Below, in pieces: positions 14,922 through 23,343 of a stretch of DNA of 64,000 nt. A program made the position numbers and the translations under genes. Numbering within the stretch: position 1 is the first letter of the stretch; every line of letters starts with the position of its first letter. Under the pieces are notes generated by a model. That model did not search any database, was not told the origin of the DNA, and worked only from the letters and a program-made list of their open reading frames with translations. This DNA comes from Pseudoclavibacter terrae (GTDB lineage Bacteria > Actinomycetota > Actinomycetes > Actinomycetales > Microbacteriaceae): contig NZ_WBJX01000005.1 in assembly GCF_008831075.1 (NCBI RefSeq), positions 248,001-312,000 on the forward strand, written 5' to 3'.

Positions 14922-15705
14922 TCACCAGGGTCGGCCCCGCAGATCGACCGGGCCAGGCGGCCAGGCGTGGACGTCGCCTCGCAGCGGGTAGATGAGCACG
15001 GGTGCGCCGTGCTCGAGGTCCGTCTCGGGAGTGCCGCTCGTCGCAGGCGTGCCACTCATTGCGGGAGTCCCGCTCGTCTCGGGAGCGCCGCTCGTCTCGG
15101 GAGCGCCGCTCGTCTCGGGAGTCGCGCTCGTCTCGGGGGTCGCGCTCGTCTCGGGGGTCGCGCTCGTCTCGGGAGTCCCGCTCGTCTCGGGAGCGCCGCG
15201 TGGCGCGGGAGTCCCGCTCGGCGGTGGCGTGCCGTCCGGCGTGGGCGTGCGTCTCGTCGCGGGCGTGCGCGAGACGCTCTGCTCTGTCACGCGGATGCGG
15301 TGCCAGCCGGTGCGCTCGTAGAACGGGACGACCTCCTCTCGGCAACCGAGATAGCCGTACTCGAGGGCCTGGTTCGCTCGCATGGCTGCTTGCGCGGTCG
15401 ACATGGCCAGGTCGCCCAGCCCTCGGCCGCGAAATCGGGCGTCGACGAGGACTCCTCCCGTGCCCGCGACCGGTGCTGGAATCGCCGACCGTGATCTCTC
15501 GGGGCTGGAATCCGACGTGTGCCACGACAGTCCCGGCGGCATCGTCGACGATGGCGTGCATGGAAGCAGGCGAGTAGCCGTATGGGTGGTCGGGATCCCA
15601 CGTCCCGTGTTCGTCAAAGTACTCGCGATCGAAGAGCGACCGCAGGGCCGCGAGGTCGGCACGCGTGAGCGACTCGTGGGCGACGATGCGTGGCGTGAAG
15701 GTCAT
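14922..15705 (-). pseudogene. GNAT N-acetyltransferase, frameshifted and with an 18-bp repeat expansion
   Basis: Start ATG 15705 (TACGCT -10 box ends 6 nt upstream, likely leaderless). The first about 75 residues (MTFTPRIVAHESL, YFDEHGTWDPDHPYGYSP, HVGFQPREITVGDSS) continue in another frame from about 15480 with VAGTGGVLVDARFRGRGLG, the acetyl-CoA-binding loop, and YGYLGCREEVVPFYERTGW. Together they form one AAC(2')/NodA-like GNAT domain split by a single frame change (one extra or two missing bases near 15480). After VTEQ, 11 repeats of ETSGTP-like hexapeptides precede the final strand APVLIYPLRG. Either a genuine lesion, a sequencing error or programmed slippage; the intact remainder argues for a recent event. 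Confidence 0.75.
15027..15224 (-). repeat. 18-bp coding tandem repeat, 11 units
   Basis: Eleven units of 18 bp, consensus GGGAGTCCCGCTCGTCTC on the plus strand, encoding Glu-Thr-Ser-Gly/Ala-Thr/Ala-Pro on the minus strand. Outer units are more diverged than inner ones. The expansion lies between two core strands of the acetyltransferase fold and keeps the frame. Confidence 0.85.
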
Positions 15706-15818
15706 CCTGTCAGCGTAGGTCGCGCGCGGTCGGAGGGCTTGTGGAGGAACCGCGATCACCGGGTCTCCGACGGAATCACTCTGGCGATCAGGGGATCTTT
15801 GCGAGCGCGACGGTGATA

Positions 15819-15889
15819 GAAACTAGTTTCGATGTTTTTCCACAATCCCTGGTCAAGACCTGGTTCTTGACCCGGTCCAGTGCTAGGCT
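15819..15889 (+). promoter_or_regulatory. Promoter region of HNH gene with two inverted repeats
   Basis: A perfect 12-bp palindrome GAAACTAGTTTC (15819-15830) is followed by TCAAGA-CCTGGT-TCTTGA (15853-15870), which would cover the -35 region of an extended -10 promoter (TGC plus TAGGCT, 15884-15889). Both are candidate repressor sites. The surrounding 40 bp are notably AT-richer than the neighbourhood. Confidence 0.5.
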
Positions 15890-15914
15890 GGTGGTGATCT
15901 TGGGGGAGGTTATC

Positions 15915-17558
15915 GTGGCATCGGAGTCGGAGCAGGAGGCGCGTCGTCAGTCGTCAGTGGAGACGGCGGTGGTGGATGCGCTGCTCGAGGCGCGGTGTCA
16001 GCTGGCGGGTCTTCCGGGTGGGGAGGTCGTGGTCGCGCTCCGGGAGTTGGCGGCTCGTCGGCGGGTTCTGGATGCGGCGTTGGTGGAGGTCGCTGGCGAG
16101 TTGCTGCGGCGGGAGGATGAGTCGCCGCGGGCGGAGTCGGTGGCGCGGAAGTCGGGGTTCCGGAACCTGACGGCGATGGTGGAGCAGGTGCTCGCGGTGC
16201 GGCCGTTCGAGGCGTCGACGCTGGTGCGGGTGGCGGCGGCGACGCGGGAGCGGATGAGCGTCACGGGCGAGACGATCCCGGCGAGGTATCCGGCCGTGTC
16301 TCGGGCGGTGGGGTCGGCGGTCATGTCGATCGCGCAGGCGTCCGCGATCACGAAGGGCCTGGATCACACCGGGAACCGCGTGGACGTCGACGAGCTCGAG
16401 CGGGCCGAGGTGGAGCTGGTCGCGTCAGCGTGCGGGGTGAATCCGGAGGACGAGCAGCCGGCGGTGCCGAAGGTGCTGGAGGTGCAGGCGGCGACGTGGG
16501 TGTCGTATTTGGACCCGGATGGTGACGAGCCGCGGGCCGACAAGATCGCGGAGGAGCGAGGCCTGTGGATCTCTCGCCGCAGCGACGGCGCGGTCGCCGG
16601 GAAGTTCGTGGCGACGCCCGAGCAGGGCGAGCAGCTGCTGTCGGTGTTCGACGCGCTGCTCTCACCCCGACGCAAGGTGGAGTTCCCGGCGGCGTCCGAG
16701 TGCGGGGAACCCCTCGCCCCGGCCCTTGGTGCCGATGGCTTCCCGTCAGTTGCCGACAGTGGCGGCCACAGCTTCGGCGGCGCAATCAACGCGCTCGGAG
16801 ACAGCGACGGCCGTGGACGAGCTGGAGTGGGAACCGCAGGCGGACGCCGAGGCCAAGAGGGGAACGGGGACGGGGACGCTGACGGGGACGCTGAGGTTCC
16901 GTCGGTAGACCCCCGGTCGATCGAGCAGCAGCGCATCGACGCGCTCACGATGGTCGTCCGCGCCTACGCCGAATCCCCCGACGCGCCCCGCACCGGCGGT
17001 GAAGCGCCCACCGTCATCATCGTGACCACCACGGCCGGCATCGCCGGAACCGCGGAACGTCCCGACGAGGTCCCGCACCTGGAGCGCACCGGCGAACCAG
17101 TCCCGTCGAGCGTCGCGGCGCAGCTGATGTGCGACGGGTTCATCCGCGTCGCGACCCGCGACAGCTCAACCGGGGAGATCCTTGACCTCGGCCGCAAACA
17201 ACGTCTCTTCACCACCGCCCAACGACGCGCCATCGCCGTCCGAGACCGGCAATGCCGGGCGCCCGGCTGCAGCGCACCCGTGCGCTGGTGCGAAGTGCAC
17301 CACGCCACGCCCTGGAGCGAAGGCGGACCCACCGACGCGAGACACGGCATCCTGCTGTGCTCCTTCCACCACCACGAAGTCCACCGCGGACGGCTCGCCC
17401 TCACCCAAAGCAGCAGCGGGCGCTGGCACGTCGTCCCCGCCCTCGGACACCACGCCCCACGACGAACCACCCGCCGCCGCGGCTACACCACCACCAACAC
17501 CACCAACACCACCGCCACCACCCAAGCCGCGCGCCCACAGATCAACCGAAGACCCTAA
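15915..17558 (+). CDS. DUF222 / HNH-endonuclease-domain protein (13E12-like)
   Basis: 547 residues from GTG 15915, set by the ribosome site GGGGGAGG 5 nt upstream. The N-terminal about 330 residues match the DUF222 layout (LAGLPGGEVVVALRELAARRRVLDAAL ... SIAQASAITKGLD). A Gly/Asp/Glu-rich linker with repeats leads to the C-terminal HNH domain: CRAPGCSAPVRWCEVHHATPW, GGPTDARHGILLCSFHHHEVH, with Cys and His metal ligands and the catalytic His pair. The tail is Thr/Asn/Arg rich (TTTNTTNTTATT). Such proteins occur in multiple copies in actinobacterial genomes; their substrate is unknown. The gene's stop codon lies within the first unit of a 17-bp array. Confidence 0.88.
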   Translation: MASESEQEARRQSSVETAVVDALLEARCQLAGLPGGEVVVALRELAARRRVLDAALVEVAGELLRREDESPRAESVARKSGFRNLTAMVEQVLAVRPFEASTLVRVAAATRERMSVTGETIPARYPAVSRAVGSAVMSIAQASAITKGLDHTGNRVDVDELERAEVELVASACGVNPEDEQPAVPKVLEVQAATWVSYLDPDGDEPRADKIAEERGLWISRRSDGAVAGKFVATPEQGEQLLSVFDALLSPRRKVEFPAASECGEPLAPALGADGFPSVADSGGHSFGGAINALGDSDGRGRAGVGTAGGRRGQEGNGDGDADGDAEVPSVDPRSIEQQRIDALTMVVRAYAESPDAPRTGGEAPTVIIVTTTAGIAGTAERPDEVPHLERTGEPVPSSVAAQLMCDGFIRVATRDSSTGEILDLGRKQRLFTTAQRRAIAVRDRQCRAPGCSAPVRWCEVHHATPWSEGGPTDARHGILLCSFHHHEVHRGRLALTQSSSGRWHVVPALGHHAPRRTTRRRGYTTTNTTNTTATTQAARPQINRRP

Positions 17559-17871
17559 ACAAGCGAGGCCCCTCAACAATCGAAAACCCTCAGCACGCGA
17601 AAGCCCTCAGCACGCGAAGCCCCGCACGCGATGACCCTCAGTACGCGAAGCCCCGCGCCACGCGATGACCCTCAGTACGCGAAGCCCCGCGCCACGCGAT
17701 GACCCTCAACAACCGAAGACCCGGAACGAACGAAGACCCGGAACGAACGAAGGCCCGGAACGAGCGAAGGCCCGGAACGAGCGAAGGCCCGGAACGAGCG
17801 AAGGCCCGGAACGAGCGAAGGCCCGGAGCGACCGAAGACCTGGAGCGACCGAAGACCCGGAACAACCGAAG
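17552..17871. repeat. 17-bp tandem repeat array, 19 units
   Basis: Eighteen 17-bp units plus one of 14 bp fill exactly 320 bp. Consensus is RCCC(T/G)(C/G)ARCRANCGAAG; four consecutive copies of GCCCGGAACGAGCGAAG are identical (about 17752-17819), and outer units drift to ACCCTCAGTACGCGAAG and CCCCGCGCCACGCGATG. The first unit contains the TAA stop of the HNH gene. There are no spacers, so it is not a CRISPR array; 17 bp is not a multiple of three, so it is not coding. It looks like a minisatellite likely to vary between strains. Confidence 0.9.
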
Positions 17872-18002
17872 CCCCTGAAGCCGCCCGCTGGGCAGGCTCG
17901 GGTCTCTTCGGGCTTGGTGCGGGAGATCAGACAGTCGGCGCGGCAACGCGAAAGTGCCGCCGAGATCACGAAGACCAGGGCGGCACCGGTTGCTGTCCAA
18001 CT

Positions 18003-18019
18003 CCGCTCACACGGAGCGG
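18003..18019 (-). terminator. Hairpin downstream of microprotein A
   Basis: CCGCTC-5 nt-GAGCGG starts 15 nt beyond the stop of the minus-strand microprotein gene. No T-tract; modest support. The stretch 17872-18002 between the repeat array and this hairpin shows nothing else recognisable. Confidence 0.4.
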
Positions 18020-18034
18020 GATGCAGCAGCGCGA

Positions 18035-18172
18035 CTAGAGCTGCGGCTGACGAGTGTTGTAGCCGAAGCGCGTGGGGCGCTGCGCATAGCCGTCCTTGCG
18101 GACAGCGCGAACAGTCTCAGCGGCGAAGGCGACAACCGCCACAACCCCGATACCAATACCAAGAAGTTCCAT
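18035..18172 (-). CDS. Membrane microprotein A (45 residues), paralogue of microprotein B
   Basis: Starts MELLGIGIGVVAVV: one membrane helix, then a basic cytoplasmic-type tail with RKDGYAQRP, a Tyr and TRQP near the C-terminus. The 48-residue product at 20657-20803 has the same plan and shares MEL, (R)DGYxxRP, a spaced Tyr and (T/S)RQP. The ribosome site CACGGAGGTGGACCC and the first codons ATGGAACT are nearly identical in both genes, as is a 13-bp upstream motif. It is the last gene of a MocR-HAD-microprotein series on the minus strand, 86 bp after the HAD gene. Function unknown. Confidence 0.78.
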   Translation of the reverse strand: MELLGIGIGVVAVVAFAAETVRAVRKDGYAQRPTRFGYNTRQPQL

Positions 18173-18204
18173 GGGTCCACCTCCGTGATCTGCCGGCGGG
18201 TGCC

Positions 18205-18224
18205 GGATATTGCATATCCAATCG
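18205..18224 (-). promoter_or_regulatory. Shared motif CGATTGGATATGC upstream of microprotein A
   Basis: On the minus strand CGATTGGATATGC (plus-strand 18212-18224) lies 39 nt before the ATG. The same motif with one change (CGATTGGATGTGC, 20606-20618) lies 38 nt before microprotein B. It overlaps an inverted repeat GGATAT-TGC-ATATCC (18205-18219). Candidate operator or promoter element for the adjacent MocR regulator. Confidence 0.55.
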
Positions 18225-18258
18225 CATCCGCCCGGGCGTGTCGCGGTCCACTCGGGGG

Positions 18259-19089
18259 TCAGTGGACTGGTCGCGCCGCGTCAATCCGCGCCCCCGCGAG
18301 CCACTCCTCCAGGAAGACCGCAACCCCATCATCAGTGTTGCTCGGAATCACCGACTCGACCACCGCGAGCGCCTCAGCGCGCGCGTTCGCGACCGCGATC
18401 GGGTGGCCGACCACCTCGAACGCCGGCAGGTCGTTGTAGTTGTCGCCGAAGTAGTACAGGTCTTCACGACCAACGCCCAGCTGCTGCGCAACCGCGAGCA
18501 GGCCCGTGCCCTTCGAGCAGTCCGCGCTCGCGATCTCCAAGTAAGTGTCCTTCGACCGGTAGCTCACAACACCGGAATGCGCACCAAGCGCCACCTCGAG
18601 CGCATCCACCAGCGCAGGATCGCCCATGCACATGATCTTGTGCGGAGGAGTCGCGTCCACCTGCCCAGACGCGACGAACTCCAACGCCGAAGCGGCCTCC
18701 GGTCGCACCCATGTGTGCGTGCGCTCCCGCTCGGTCCACTCATCCTCGCCCCAGGCGTACCAGTGCTCACCGGCGAAGAAGCTCGCATGCAAGCCGGACG
18801 CCTCGCAGTGCTCGGCGACGAACCGCGCATCCGCGGGCGAGATCGGCACATTGTGCTGCACCTCACCGCTCCCGGAAAGCACCAAGCCGCCGTTGAACGC
18901 CACCAGGGGGGAGCCGATACCGCCGTACAGGCGCTCGAGCACCCGCATCGACTCCGGGGGCCGCGACGAACAGAGCACGAAGCGGTGGCCAGCGGCCCGA
19001 ACTGCCGCGATCGCCTCGATCGTTCTGGGAGAGAGCGTCCGCTGCGCGCTCAGCAGGGTGCCGTCGATGTCGCTGATGAAGAGAACCAT
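18259..19089 (-). CDS. Cof-type HAD-IIB phosphatase
   Basis: 276 residues. HAD motifs: ISDIDGTLLS (nucleophile Asp and acid Asp), LCSSRPP (motif II), Lys in the HKIMC/DCSKGTG region (motif III) and FGDNYNDLPAF (motif IV). The long cap between motifs II and III is type C2B. Such enzymes dephosphorylate small sugar phosphates or pyridoxal phosphate. The gene starts 3 bp after the stop of the MocR-type regulator, so the two are co-translated; a B6-related substrate is therefore possible but not shown. Microprotein A follows on the same strand. Confidence 0.9.
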   Translation of the reverse strand: MVLFISDIDGTLLSAQRTLSPRTIEAIAAVRAAGHRFVLCSSRPPESMRVLERLYGGIGSPLVAFNGGLVLSGSGEVQHNVPISPADARFVAEHCEASGLHASFFAGEHWYAWGEDEWTERERTHTWVRPEAASALEFVASGQVDATPPHKIMCMGDPALVDALEVALGAHSGVVSYRSKDTYLEIASADCSKGTGLLAVAQQLGVGREDLYYFGDNYNDLPAFEVVGHPIAVANARAEALAVVESVIPSNTDDGVAVFLEEWLAGARIDAARPVH

Positions 19090-19092
19090 GGA

Positions 19093-20559
19093 CTACACCA
19101 TCTCAGGAAGACGCGTATCCGCCATCGACCGGACGTCACGCGCCGACAGCTGCGCCCACGCATCGGCAAGCATCCGAGTGCCCGCTTCCAGATCAGCGAT
19201 CGGCGCCGTGAACGGCACCCGCAGGAACCGCTCCAGGCTCCCATCGATCGAGAACTTCGGTCCAGCGACCAGCGCCAACCCTCGCGCCTCCGACAACGAC
19301 GTCATGGCGGAGCTCGCCGACTGCGCGAGATGCACCCACATCGACAGGCCACCATCAGGCAAAGGCACCTGCCACTCCGGGAGATGCAGGCTCAGCGCCT
19401 CGTGCAGCGCGTCCCGGTGCCGGCGCATCTGCTCCCGGCGCCGCGGCAGCAGCTCTGGCAGGGCCCGCACGATCCGCTCCGCGAGAAGCTGCTCGATCTG
19501 CGGCGTCCCGAGATCACCCGCGGGACGCGCCTGCACGAACCGGCGAATCAGCGCCGCATCAGCCCGGATCCAGCCGATCCGGAGGCCCGCCCAAGCGGCC
19601 TTGCTGAGCGACCCGACCGTCACGACCCCCGAACCGGAGAACGGGGACGCCCCCCGCGCGTGGCGAGCAAACGGGCCGTCGTCCCACGGCCGGTCGATCG
19701 ACAGGTCGGCGGTCGTCTCGTCCACGACGAGAATCGTGCCAGCCGCACGCGCCGCCTCCGTCACGCGCACGCGATCCTCCGGCCGCATCGACGCCCCCGT
19801 CGGATTATGGAAGTCCGGGATCAGATACGCGAGCGCCGGACGCATGCGCTCGATCGTCTCGACCAGGTGATCGATCTCCCACCCGCCCGTCGTGACCGGC
19901 GTCGCGATGAGCCTCGCCCCCGCTCGCCGCATCGCCTCGTAGGCGTGCGGGTAGGTGGGCGACTCCACGAGCACCACATCCGACCGCGTGAGCAGCGTGT
20001 GCGCCGTCAACGAGATCGCGTGCTGCGCCCCCATCGTCACGATGATCTGATCTGCCGTCGTGGGCAGCCCCCGCGCCGCGTACCGGTCGGCGATCGCCGA
20101 CCGCAACGACAGCGTCCCCAGGAGATCGAAACCCGGGGCGGCCAGCGCGAGCGGCATCGAACTCGACGCGTCCGCGATGATCTCAGCGAGACCCTCGACC
20201 GGTGGCGGCACCGCCCGCGCGAAGTCCACGCCGAAGTTCTCACCCTCCCCACTCGGACGGTAGTCCTGCCGACCGAGCCGGGGGAGCGTCACACGACTCC
20301 CGGACCCCTGGCGGCTCAGCACGTGCCCGCTGTCGCGCAGCGACTGATACGCGGCCACGATCGTCGTGCGGCTCCGGCCGGACTGCACCGCAAGCTCCCG
20401 CTCGGACGGCAGGCGAGTGCCGACCGGAATGCGCCCGTCGACGATCAGCAGGCGGATGCGCTCGGCCAGAGCCTCGTACGCCGCCGAATCGTCGCGCAGC
20501 TCACCCGCCAAGGACAGCAGGGTGCGGGCAGAGATACGAGAACCAGAAGTCGACTCCAT
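19093..20559 (-). CDS. MocR-type regulator: GntR winged helix fused to class-I aminotransferase fold
   Basis: 488 residues from ATG 20559. The GntR domain is at about residues 25-95 (AYEALAERIRLLIVDGRIPVGTRLPSERELA, RTTIVAAYQSLRDSGHV). The C-terminal fold-type-I domain has the PLP lysine in VGSLSKAAWAGLRIGWI and the HNPTGASM and VDETTADL segments. MocR/PdxR/GabR proteins sense PLP or amino compounds and act as activators or repressors. A CATACT -10 box (plus-strand 20566-20571) ends 6 nt before the ATG, suggesting a leaderless message. It is divergent from microprotein B and upstream of the HAD gene. Its actual regulon is unknown; the shared motif near both microprotein genes is the best candidate site. 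Confidence 0.92.
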   Translation of the reverse strand: MESTSGSRISARTLLSLAGELRDDSAAYEALAERIRLLIVDGRIPVGTRLPSERELAVQSGRSRTTIVAAYQSLRDSGHVLSRQGSGSRVTLPRLGRQDYRPSGEGENFGVDFARAVPPPVEGLAEIIADASSSMPLALAAPGFDLLGTLSLRSAIADRYAARGLPTTADQIIVTMGAQHAISLTAHTLLTRSDVVLVESPTYPHAYEAMRRAGARLIATPVTTGGWEIDHLVETIERMRPALAYLIPDFHNPTGASMRPEDRVRVTEAARAAGTILVVDETTADLSIDRPWDDGPFARHARGASPFSGSGVVTVGSLSKAAWAGLRIGWIRADAALIRRFVQARPAGDLGTPQIEQLLAERIVRALPELLPRRREQMRRHRDALHEALSLHLPEWQVPLPDGGLSMWVHLAQSASSAMTSLSEARGLALVAGPKFSIDGSLERFLRVPFTAPIADLEAGTRMLADAWAQLSARDVRSMADTRLPEMV

Positions 20560-20596
20560 GGATCCAGTATGCGGGAAGTGGACCGCGACGGCCAGG

Positions 20597-20618
20597 CCAA
20601 TACGACGATTGGATGTGC
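20597..20618. promoter_or_regulatory. Divergent regulatory site: CCAAT-6-ATTGG and shared 13-bp motif
   Basis: CCAATACGACGATTGG (20597-20612) is an inverted repeat with 5-bp arms. It overlaps CGATTGGATGTGC (20606-20618), which recurs with one change before microprotein A. It sits between the MocR regulator and microprotein B, the natural place for an operator controlling both. Confidence 0.55.
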
Positions 20619-20656
20619 TCACCAGCACGATTCGCCCTACGTCACGGAGGTGGCCC

Positions 20657-20803
20657 ATGGAACTCATCCCGCTCATCGTCATCGGGATCATCGCGACCCT
20701 CATCGCCGGGGCCGGGGTGACGGGCACCCTCATCGTCATGATGCGGGATGGGTACCGGGCGCGCCCGATGCAGTCCAGTTACGACTCCCGCCAGCCGAGC
20801 TAG
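20657..20803 (+). CDS. Membrane microprotein B (48 residues), paralogue of microprotein A
   Basis: Starts MELIPLIVIGIIATL: a Gly/Ile-rich membrane helix, then MMRDGYRARP, a Tyr and SRQPS at the end. The strong ribosome site CACGGAGGTGGCCC precedes the ATG and matches that of microprotein A, as does the motif 38 nt upstream. It is divergent from the MocR regulator. Conserved start, conserved tail and duplicated control region argue that it is translated. No known family recognised. Confidence 0.78.
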   Translation: MELIPLIVIGIIATLIAGAGVTGTLIVMMRDGYRARPMQSSYDSRQPS

Positions 20804-20964
20804 TCAACCCGCGCTCACGGCCCGGCCGCCCCCGGCTAGCGCCCACAAGCACGACCCGCGCTCACGGCCCAATCCTCGACCGACGCTCACGACCTGGGCC
20901 GGGGACGGAAGCCCGTGGCCCGGCGCCGCGACCAATACACTGGCCGCAAGCTGGGGGAGGCGGC

Positions 20965-21864
20965 ATGGCAGGCGAAGAGCGCGGGAAACGGCGAGTTGCG
21001 ACGCTCGGCCGAGGGGCCGCGATCGCGCGAGCCCTGGTGGCTGCCGCCGTCATGGCCACCGGGCTCGTGCTCTCCACCGAGGTCTCGGCGCTGCTCTTCG
21101 GCGTCGATGCGACCGCCGCGAGCGGCTTCGGGTCCCGCGTGCTCGTGGCGTGCTGCGTCACGCTCGTCGTCGTCGGTGCCGTCCTGCTCCTGCGGCGCCG
21201 GTGGGACCGCCGATCCCTGACTGGCATCGGGCTCACGGGCCTCCGGGCCGACGCCTCGGGGTTCGCCCTCGGGCTCGGCACCCTCGTCGCTGCCGGCGTC
21301 GCCATGCTCCTGGCGCTCGACGTCACCGGCGTCATCAGCCTTATCGCCCTCGACCCTGTGCGGCTCCGCGGGTTCCTCGGGGCGAACACGGTCGTCGCGC
21401 TCCTCCTCGAAGCCATCCCGGAGGAGCTCGCGATCCGCGGCTACGCGCTCACGAACCTCCGCGATGCCTTCCCGCCCGCCGCAGCGACCCTCCTCAACAT
21501 CGCGACATTCCTCGTCGTCCCGGTCTTGGCCCTCACGCTCCAAGGGGCCCTCGCGGCAGCTCGCGGGGCGGGCGACCAGATCCTCCTGGCCCCAGCAGGT
21601 GAGGACCCCATCGTCTACTACGCAATGCTGACCGCCTTCGGATACCTCCTGATCTGCGCGCGCGACGCCACCGCATCCGCCACCGTCTGGACGAGCATCG
21701 GCGCCCACCTCGGGTGGCTCACCATGAACCGCCTCGTGCTCGGCGGCGACAGCGTCCAATTCGAGATGGACGACCTCGGCATGCTGCTCTTCTTCGCCGG
21801 ATACGCGACCATCTCGGTCGTCACCTTCAGCTGGCTGCGACGACGCCACAGCGCTGCCAGGTGA
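20965..21864 (+). CDS. CPBP-family intramembrane protease-like protein
   Basis: 299 residues with about seven membrane helices. The CPBP/Abi motif EExxxR is present as AIPEELAIRGYAL, and a later His in SIGAHLGWLTMNR fits the second motif, so the proposed glutamate-dependent intramembrane protease site looks intact. The start ATG 20965 has GGGGGAGG 4 nt upstream. Members process prenylated or membrane proteins, or act in bacteriocin immunity; nothing nearby decides this. It stands alone between microprotein B and a convergent AzlCD operon. Confidence 0.85.
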   Translation: MAGEERGKRRVATLGRGAAIARALVAAAVMATGLVLSTEVSALLFGVDATAASGFGSRVLVACCVTLVVVGAVLLLRRRWDRRSLTGIGLTGLRADASGFALGLGTLVAAGVAMLLALDVTGVISLIALDPVRLRGFLGANTVVALLLEAIPEELAIRGYALTNLRDAFPPAAATLLNIATFLVVPVLALTLQGALAAARGAGDQILLAPAGEDPIVYYAMLTAFGYLLICARDATASATVWTSIGAHLGWLTMNRLVLGGDSVQFEMDDLGMLLFFAGYATISVVTFSWLRRRHSAAR

Positions 21865-21920
21865 GAAGGCTGCGAGAAGAGAGAGATGGCATCCACGCGC
21901 GACGGCAGCCCGGTATGACG

Positions 21921-22010
21921 GCCGCGAGCCGGGCGGCCGCGAGCCGGGCGGCCGCGAGCCGGATGGCCGCGAGTCTGGCGGCCGCGATTCTGGCGGCCGC
22001 GAGTCGGGCG
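21921..22010. repeat. 15-bp tandem repeat, six units
   Basis: Six units of 15 bp with consensus GCCGCGAGCCGGGCG; the first two are identical, later ones differ by 1-3 bases. It lies between the convergent CPBP and AzlD genes (252-bp gap), downstream of both stops. Confidence 0.85.
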
Positions 22011-22115
22011 GCTCCGCGAGCGCACAGCGCCGCAGCGCATCAGGGACGGCGGTGAATCGACGGTCGAGATAACCCAGGGGGCGCGAGCGGGAGTGCCGGC
22101 CGCGCGGGTGATCGG

Positions 22116-22439
22116 CTAGAAGACGTTCACGAGCACGACGAACGTCGCCGTCCCGAGCCCGACGCTGAGCAGTGTCCTGCGTCCGAACCCGAGGTGCACG
22201 CCGATCGTCACAGCGAGCGCGATCGCCGCCCACAGGGATGTGCGTGGCTCGACGGCGAAGTCGCTGAAGGTGACGACGGCGAGGATCGCGAGGATCCCGG
22301 CGGGCATCCACACGGCAAGCCGCTGCACGGTCTTCGAGTCGCGCAACGGCTTGAGGGCCGCGAACGGCACCGCGCGCAGTGCGAACGTGATGCCGCCGCA
22401 GACGGCGAGCGCCCCGACGAACCACCACACGTCAAACAT
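22116..22439 (-). CDS. azlD: AzlD-family branched-chain amino acid exporter small subunit
   Basis: 107 residues with three to four membrane helices; MFDVWWFVGALAVCGGITFALRAVPF and the KPLRDSKTVQRLAVWMPAGILAIL segment are typical of AzlD. It partners AzlC to export leucine, valine or isoleucine analogues. Its ATG overlaps the azlC 3' end by 8 bp, so the two are co-translated. Confidence 0.9.
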   Translation of the reverse strand: MFDVWWFVGALAVCGGITFALRAVPFAALKPLRDSKTVQRLAVWMPAGILAILAVVTFSDFAVEPRTSLWAAIALAVTIGVHLGFGRRTLLSVGLGTATFVVLVNVF

Positions 22440-23343
22440 CGCTCACCTGCACCTCGCCCCGGTCGCGCCGCGCGGCCACGAGAGCGCGGACCGCGAGCGC
22501 CACGGCGAAGAGGATGAGCGCCGCGAAGAGCGGAGCGCCCGGCACGAAGAGCAACCCGAGCGAGACGCTCAAGCCCGCGATGAGCAGCGAGGGCACGTCC
22601 TCGCGGGAGCGGATCGCGTCGAGAGCCAGGACCGTGAAGAGCGCGCACAGCGAGAACTCGAGGCCCTTGATCTCGCCCGGGAGGATGCTCGCGAGCGCCA
22701 CGCCGGCCAGGCCCCCGCCGACCCAGTAGGTCTGGAGTGCGAGCTGCAGGGTGAGGAGTCGAGTCGCCGAGCGCTGCGCCGACGGAATGGGCGTCACGAT
22801 CGCGTAGGCCTCGTCGGTCATCGCCCAGATCGAGTAGAGACGGGCGAGGCGTCCGCGCACCAGATGCAGCGGGAACGAGAACGCGTAGAACACGTGCCGG
22901 AAGTTGACGAAGAAGGTCGTGAGCGCCATGGTCGCGATCGGTGTTCCAGCAGCGATGAGGCCCACGAGCAGGAGCTCGATCGACCCCGCGTAGACGAGCA
23001 CCGACAGTGACGGCGCGACCCACCAGGGCAGCCCAGCCTGCATCACCAGCACCCCGAAGGCCACACCGAGCGGCACCACGCCGAGGCCCGCCGCGACCGA
23101 GTCGCGCAGCCCCGCCCTGATGCGCGCACCGCGGGTCGATGGGACCTCCAAGCTTGGGGTCAGGCTCGTGGCCCGGTTCGCGGCCGCGTTGGCGCGCGCA
23201 TCCGTTCCCGCTCCTGATCCCGTTCCCGCTCCCGCGGCCATGCCCGTGCCCGCGCGCGTGCCCACGGCATCCGCATTCCCGGGCCTCGCCCTTGCGGGCC
23301 CAGGAGGGGAAGCGTCGCGTGCTCCGGCGTCTGCGGTGGTCAT
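22432..23343 (-). CDS. azlC: AzlC-family branched-chain amino acid exporter large subunit
   Basis: 303 residues. An unusually long Ala/Gly/Thr-rich N-terminal extension of about 75 residues (ARAGTGMAAGAGTGSGAGTD) precedes the membrane core, which begins IRAGLRDSVAAGLGVVPLGVAFGVL and contains the family segment TTFFVNFRHVFYAFSFPLH and MTDEAYAIVT. A start after the extension would still leave a full AzlC domain, so the true start is uncertain. It is divergent from an Lrp-type regulator, the usual partner of azlCD, which should control it in response to an amino acid. Confidence 0.9.
   Translation of the reverse strand: MTTADAGARDASPPGPARARPGNADAVGTRAGTGMAAGAGTGSGAGTDARANAAANRATSLTPSLEVPSTRGARIRAGLRDSVAAGLGVVPLGVAFGVLVMQAGLPWWVAPSLSVLVYAGSIELLLVGLIAAGTPIATMALTTFFVNFRHVFYAFSFPLHLVRGRLARLYSIWAMTDEAYAIVTPIPSAQRSATRLLTLQLALQTYWVGGGLAGVALASILPGEIKGLEFSLCALFTVLALDAIRSREDVPSLLIAGLSVSLGLLFVPGAPLFAALILFAVALAVRALVAARRDRGEVQVSDV

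Follow-up and report, generated by a model that had tools for sequence, protein, structure and literature searches.

A probable YczR-like MocR regulon of yczE and two membrane microproteins in Pseudoclavibacter terrae

We analyzed a window of 64,000 nucleotides from Pseudoclavibacter terrae (NCBI RefSeq assembly GCF_008831075.1, contig NZ_WBJX01000005.1, positions 248,001 to 312,000; coordinates below count from the first nucleotide of the window), in which two short open reading frames (ORFs) flank a gene for a MocR-type regulator and a gene for a HAD-type hydrolase. The first ORF, which we call P1 (18035-18172, minus strand), encodes 45 amino acids with one predicted membrane helix and the tail KDGYAQRPTRFGYNTRQPQL. 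The second, P2 (20657-20803, plus strand), encodes 48 amino acids with one predicted helix (residues 3-31) and the tail RDGYRARPMQSSYDSRQPS. An initial annotation of the bare sequence had proposed both ORFs, and they are present as it described them: each starts with ATGGAACT and is preceded by the ribosome-binding site CACGGAGGTGG, located at 18177-18187 on the minus strand for P1 and at 20643-20653 on the plus strand for P2. The mocR gene (19093-20559, minus strand) encodes a protein of 488 amino acids with a GntR winged helix-turn-helix (wHTH) domain and an aminotransferase-like domain, and the HAD gene (18259-19089, minus strand; 276 amino acids) follows it at the claimed distance of 3 bp.

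The hydropathy maxima of the two microproteins are 2.6 and 2.2. When 945 segments of the window were ranked with a profile of the microprotein family described below, from which the Pseudoclavibacter members had been removed (22 of 26 rows left), P2 came first (E 3.4e-10) and P1 second (E 2e-6), the next segment reaching only E 0.58. The likeness of P1 and P2 therefore exceeds chance, and the two are homologous single-helix microproteins. Fold prediction of P2 (mean predicted local distance difference test score 79.1, predicted template modelling score 0.43) returned a single helix at residues 3-31 and adds no more than that this helix is likely. One helix together with a basic tail suggests a cytoplasmic tail, and in the topology that we infer for P1 and P2 the conserved basic tail probably faces the cytoplasm. 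Scans of Pfam and NCBIfam gave no family at E <= 1 for either protein, which rules them out as members of these libraries, small transporter subunits included. Among the 26 family members the same libraries gave no family common to more than two members and no E-value below 0.006, in agreement with the initial statement that no described family covers them.

Conservation within the genus was examined in 10 Pseudoclavibacter genomes, the source genome included. Both microproteins occur in five of these, about 2.6 kb apart, and an alignment showed that both ORFs, their promoter blocks and their ribosome sites are kept in all five. Genome G188 holds a third, partial and weak microprotein match (21 model positions, E 3.3e-7); the named records L133-L136 were taken as the same genomes as G188, G073, G250 and G251 and add no evidence. 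Among the five genomes 2 of the 45 residues of P1 and 25 of the 48 of P2 are variable, those of P2 mostly within the helix, and the variable sites at codon positions 1, 2 and 3 number 1, 1 and 8 in P1 and 18, 10 and 28 in P2. The ratio of nonsynonymous to synonymous substitution (dN/dS, Nei-Gojobori) was 0.06-0.11 for P1 in 8 of the 10 pairs; the closest pair gave 0.35, from one synonymous and one other change, and one further pair was identical. For P2 the ratio was 0.18-0.56. These values suggest strong constraint on P1 and moderate constraint on P2, and the substitution-ratio check that had been proposed at the outset gave results below 1 for both P1 (0.06-0.35) and P2. P1 is quiet at synonymous sites too (dS 0-0.27, versus up to 1.03 for P2), and by this comparison its synonymous-site conservation is more than a coding role alone would explain.

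The regulator has the two domains that define MocR proteins (PF00392, E 2.5e-14; PF00155, fold-type-I aminotransferase-like, E 2.3e-28) and scores above the NCBIfam cut-off for YczR (NF052290; 553.9 versus 487.4 bits). PdxR, the second-best NCBIfam model, remained below its cut-off (183 versus 320 bits). YczR belongs to the YczR-YczE system, in which a MocR regulator gene is divergent from the gene for a DUF161-type membrane protein (PMC4944035). The nearest named relatives of the source regulator stand in four Pseudoclavibacter genomes, including P. helvolus DSM 20419 (96-99% identity). In a midpoint-rooted tree of 48 proteins, a single 100/100 split separates 15 rows, comprising the source regulator, these four relatives and proteins of Blastococcus, Streptosporangiaceae, Brevibacterium, Gordonia and Microbacterium, from 33 rows of a yczE-group, which include two rows where no yczE was seen (L058 and the long-branched L098) and a duplicate of L037 (L099). 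Among the 16 loci of the regulator's named relatives, L148, which was truncated, is not in the tree and L147 falls in the yczE-group. We call the source regulator YczR-like because it passes the YczR cut-off yet falls outside the yczE-group. The 10 named loci of its own clade outside the genus carry an inverted repeat in every case and have no yczE in the fetched flank; divergent microproteins are visible at L137, L138 and L143, those at L137 and L143 recognised by eye, and one at L140 is doubtful. The Microbacterium loci L137 and L142 have further operator-like inverted repeats ahead of a thioesterase-like gene (named by eye), near HIBADH-like genes beside MocR, the latter label reflecting weak NCBIfam scores below cut-off. 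The product of the HAD gene passes the model for Cof-type HAD-IIB hydrolases (TIGR00099; 150.7 versus 137 bits) and was rejected as a pyridoxal phosphatase (65 versus 274 bits).

We compared the locus with yczR-yczE loci of the family Microbacteriaceae. At E <= 1e-60 the YczR search matched 192 of the 249 genomes, 156 genomes had a match above the cut-off, and the 30 highest-scoring loci were examined. A divergent yczE adjoins the regulator gene in 29 of them, and 10 of the 30 have a co-oriented microprotein gene behind yczE. The consensus of the 29 intergenic regions is GGCCACT-N8-ATTGGCA-N11-GGCCAAT-N6-ATTGGAT; ATTGGA(C/T) is present in 23 (shuffled mean 0.27), GGCCA in 24 (shuffled 3.8), and the rigid N8-N11-N6 spacing fits 21. 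Against letter shuffles, which preserve base composition only, the inverted repeat was found in 25 of 29 yczR-yczE regions (maximum 4 in shuffles), in 11 of 11 regions of the family f38 described below (maximum 2) and in 10 of 10 own-clade regions (maximum 3). At one locus (L098, genome G153) a microprotein gene is directly divergent from the long-branch MocR gene and a PhzF-like gene (named by eye) occupies the usual place of yczE, no yczE being found among the ORFs listed there.

The initial annotation had noted a motif shared by P1 and P2, CGATTGGAT(A/G)TGC, at 18212-18224 on the minus strand and 20606-20618 on the plus strand, 39 and 38 nt upstream of the ATGs. Both copies are real and exact, but the 13-mer alone is at chance level (CGATTGGATRTGC with two mismatches gave 2 matches in the window versus 1.9 expected), so that its weight rests only on the conserved block around it. 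The ATGC ending before P1 turned out to be specific to the source genome, the other four genomes having GATTGGATTGC at this place. The motif proved to be the 3' portion of a longer operator, whose stronger inverted repeat farther upstream had been overlooked. In all five genomes the promoters of P1 and P2 have in common GTCCA(C/G)T-N8-(A/G)GTGGACCGCGAC, followed by (C/G)GATTGGAT(n)TGC, the ribosome site CACGGAGGTGG and the ATG, with the first G replaced by A in two P2 promoters. In front of P1 the predicted operator core TCCACTGACCCCCGAGTGGACC (18245-18266, minus strand), whose block is kept in the five genomes, is overlapped by the 3' end of the HAD gene, and the motif first noted, CGATTGGATATGC at 18212-18224, would be the 3' element (R4) of the operator and possibly also a -10 region. 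The P1 promoter keeps the outer elements, has a degenerate third site and is one base shorter.

The P2 promoter, ATCCAGT-N8-AGTGGAC-N11-GGCCAAT-N6-ATTGGAT, repeats the spacing of the yczR-yczE regions exactly. Its core TCCAGTATGCGGGAAGTGGACC (20563-20584, plus strand), a match to the core pattern given below, lies between mocR and P2, and the first half-site starts 2 bp ahead of the mocR ATG, a position that would fit autoregulation of mocR. The third and fourth half-sites, GGCCAAT-N6-ATTGGAT, occupy 20595-20614 on the plus strand, the fourth falling within the 20606-20618 motif. We built a position weight matrix (PWM) from the 21 regions of rigid spacing, the 8 others being dropped, and scanned the window with it; the P2 operator scored best (35.1), the P1 operator came next (5.1), and the following match scored -3.1. 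An Rfam scan of 16000-23000 gave no match at E <= 0.1, which rules out a known structured RNA at the locus.

Searching the 3.9-Mb source genome with TCCA[CG]T-N7/8-AGTGGACC (TCCASTN{7,8}AGTGGACC) returned exactly three matches, and the reversed control none. One match precedes P1, a second separates mocR from P2, and the third is on a different contig, 57 bp ahead of a tblastn match to yczE. This unlinked yczE lies on contig C5 (G000:C5:461041-461595; loci L092 and L095), mocR being on C7, and its product passes the NCBIfam model NF052291 (235.1 versus 205 bits). It stands behind an ldh-like gene (named by eye), apart from its usual regulator neighbour, with the operator core. All five genus genomes preserve the block at the yczE promoter, one of them reading ACTGGACC. 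A slightly wider pattern (ASTGGACC) gave 14 matches in the four named Pseudoclavibacter genomes, solely at the P1, mocR/P2 and yczE promoters, with no match of the reversed control; three relatives have all three places and the fourth has two (L136, where the P1 site has GGTGGACC). Among the 14 named genomes scanned, 8 had no match, Brevibacterium had one, away from the regulator, and Blastococcus had one place (two matches), at MocR; the reversed control matched in 3 of the 14, none of them Pseudoclavibacter. Because matches elsewhere are few and the reversed control also matches in these 3 genomes, the wider pattern is tuned to Pseudoclavibacter. All five genus genomes with P1 and P2 have yczE, and it was found in none of the other five (Fisher p 0.008 over 10 genomes, which are not independent). 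Two of the five genomes without P1 and P2 were searched for the regulator, and neither gave a match at E <= 1e-60.

P1 and P2 belong to a wider microprotein family with the core RDGYxxxPxR. Its profile A1, made from the 26 members, matches 130 of the 249 Microbacteriaceae genomes (E <= 1e-3); the microproteins are thus not peculiar to the source locus, and homologues beyond the source strain exist both in the genus and across the family. The 59 loci taken from the best matches represent 40 distinct Microbacteriaceae places (the best-scoring, not all); besides the places with a LysR gene considered below, 5 have yczE, 3 have MocR (in the genus) and 4 have none of LysR, yczE and MocR. At class level 19 loci besides the window were inspected, 11 with a divergent MocR gene, 3 with a LysR match and 5 with neither. 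All 11 MocR-divergent loci are of family f38 (51-54% identity; 11 of the 12 matching f38 genomes were fetched) and were found with the microprotein profile alone. Their intergenic regions contain GTCCA(G/C)T-N8-ATTGGC in 11 of 11 cases, and no YczE match was found in the fetched flank (up to 1.5 kb). A check of conservation next to MocR and HAD genes had been proposed. The MocR neighbour recurs in all 11 f38 loci; no relative of the HAD was found within 1.5 kb in the 30 other YczR loci, and a general association of HAD genes with YczR was rejected.

Taken together, these data point to a YczR-like MocR regulon of yczE and membrane microproteins, a reading which, judged from sequence, we hold to be probable as a whole. 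The regulon itself, with a predicted shared operator and MocR as its regulator, is very likely. MocR is the likely regulator: inverted repeats of like architecture precede related MocR genes, and the earlier proposal of one regulon with a shared control region is borne out by a core that occurs, in the five genomes, only at the P1, mocR/P2 and yczE promoters. The MocR protein would bind the inverted repeat GTCCA(C/G)T-N7/8-AGTGGAC, which has an ATTGGAT-like element downstream, with pyridoxal 5'-phosphate (PLP) plus an amino compound as the presumed effector, judging from the MocR family. It would control its own gene and the divergent P2, P1 behind the HAD gene and the unlinked yczE, and would set the levels of yczE and the microproteins jointly. 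P1 and P2 would most likely assist or regulate a membrane carrier as its small partners, and YczE, an integral membrane protein under the predicted control of the regulon, would be the first candidate. An early guess at an unknown transporter has thus gained a concrete candidate in the unlinked yczE, but the partnership is one that we infer. That YczE is the partner is a tentative proposal, to which we give somewhat less than an even chance; it would be most economical where yczE is near or co-regulated. It is perhaps also the case, and we suggest this with a little more reserve, that the microproteins form an undescribed family found in several families of the class and are the conserved output of MocR (and separately of LysR) regulators in Actinomycetota, beside or in place of yczE, as small partners of YczE-type carriers.

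Several observations weigh against the YczR-like regulon with YczE as partner. In the tree the source regulator does not fall in the yczE-group, and among the 10 own-clade loci from beyond the genus only L138 has a microprotein that the profile detects (E 0.026). Among the top YczR loci 29 have yczE, and in 19 of these no microprotein was recognised within 1.5 kb, so that YczE can do without a close microprotein gene. The family is patchy beyond Microbacteriaceae: at E <= 1e-4 profile A1 matches 28 of the 347 genomes searched in the order, 24 of which are themselves Microbacteriaceae, and profile A2 matches 28 of 394 genomes of the class. At 28 of the 40 Microbacteriaceae places the divergent neighbour of the microprotein gene is a LysR gene, with 52-100% identity to a single query; YczE therefore cannot be the sole partner, and this LysR-linked majority argues that the microprotein family has other partners too. 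The ATTGGAT element may be a -10 element instead of a regulator site, because many of the yczE promoters have a TTGnnn hexamer, at TCTTG, 17 bp upstream of TTGGAT. The operator of the source yczE scores only -5.2 with the yczR-yczE PWM, yet it is the top match of its own 9-kb locus.

Some of these facts would suit microproteins that belong to the MocR regulon but work in the membrane by themselves, or on unlinked targets that are not YczE, as small membrane regulators at the command of either MocR or LysR. The LysR pairing, the f38 flanks in which no YczE was matched and the separate contig of the Pseudoclavibacter yczE all lean this way, and we regard it as possible, though on the unlikely side, given the co-occurrence of yczE with P1 and P2, their common operator in Pseudoclavibacter and the yczE-adjacent microproteins at 10 of 30 YczR loci. 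A vitamin-B6 homeostasis module, in which MocR senses PLP, the HAD protein dephosphorylates it and the microproteins affect B6 traffic, is improbable. PLP binding is a family trait of MocR regulators, the HAD gene lies 3 bp behind mocR and PdxR is the second-best model of the regulator; but the pyridoxal phosphatase and PdxR scores both stay far below their cut-offs, the 30 other YczR loci have no HAD relative within 1.5 kb, and the three operator cores lie at P1, mocR/P2 and yczE with none at a B6 gene. The B6 role that the initial annotation had considered is not supported by the HAD evidence. It is more improbable still, indeed very much so, that the short ORFs are hydrophobic toxins of toxin-antitoxin systems or unexpressed relics: both products are small, hydrophobic and single-helix, and P1 is conserved at synonymous sites beyond a coding role alone, but nonsynonymous changes are few in P1 (0.06-0.11 in 8 of 10 pairs) and P2 (0.18-0.56), ribosome sites and operators are conserved, and the Rfam scan of 16000-23000 gave no match.

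The regulator-yczE system is already known (PMC4944035). The source locus resembles it in a regulator that passes the NCBIfam YczR model, in the inverted repeat of P2 with the same spacing and in a yczE that carries the core. It differs in that yczE is unlinked (C5 versus C7) where the YczR group has an adjacent divergent yczE, in that two microproteins flank the regulator gene instead and a HAD gene follows it, and in that its regulator is on the other side of the 100/100 split. With PdxR and other MocR regulators it shares the wHTH and aminotransferase-like architecture and repeats in the control region, PdxR sites being direct plus inverted repeats according to that paper; the source regulator scores well short of the PdxR cut-off. 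The divergent LysR-microprotein pairs of Microbacteriaceae have the same microprotein family with its RDGYxxxPxR core, but another regulator family and no yczE match in their loci. Such pairs (L006, L008, L072 and others) often lie between tatB-like and mrp-like genes (named by eye). MetS, KdpF and AcrZ are small subunits or regulators of carriers. The microproteins resemble them in size, in having one membrane helix and in linkage to a membrane protein gene at part of the loci, and differ in that no library family is common to more than two of the 26 members and in having no known interaction. In the open-access literature searched, with YczE papers covered in part, we found no prior account of a microprotein component and a three-place regulon, nor of divergent LysR-microprotein pairs in Actinobacteria or of small transmembrane proteins of Pseudoclavibacter; neither 'small protein' nor 'microprotein' appears as a term in the portion of the PMC4944035 text covered.

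Two repeat regions lie beside the locus. Tandem arrays with units of about 17 bp occupy 17547-17879, downstream of P1 and adjoining the long ORF 15741-17558, and about eleven copies of an 18-bp repeat at 15021-15220, within the ORF 14922-15662 (minus strand), encode ETSGTP/ETSATP units.

YczE and its MocR regulator are recurrent in Actinobacteria, YczR regulators scoring above the cut-off in 156 of the 249 family genomes, and the function of YczE is open (PMC4944035). A co-regulated microprotein and an operator simple enough for a genome-wide pattern search would make the regulon directly testable and would offer handles on the function of YczE, through its partner, ligand screens and knock-outs. 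If the reading is true, it would add to the small membrane proteins a class that the Pfam and NCBIfam libraries have missed, and P1 and P2 would represent an undescribed microprotein partner within a known kind of bacterial control system.

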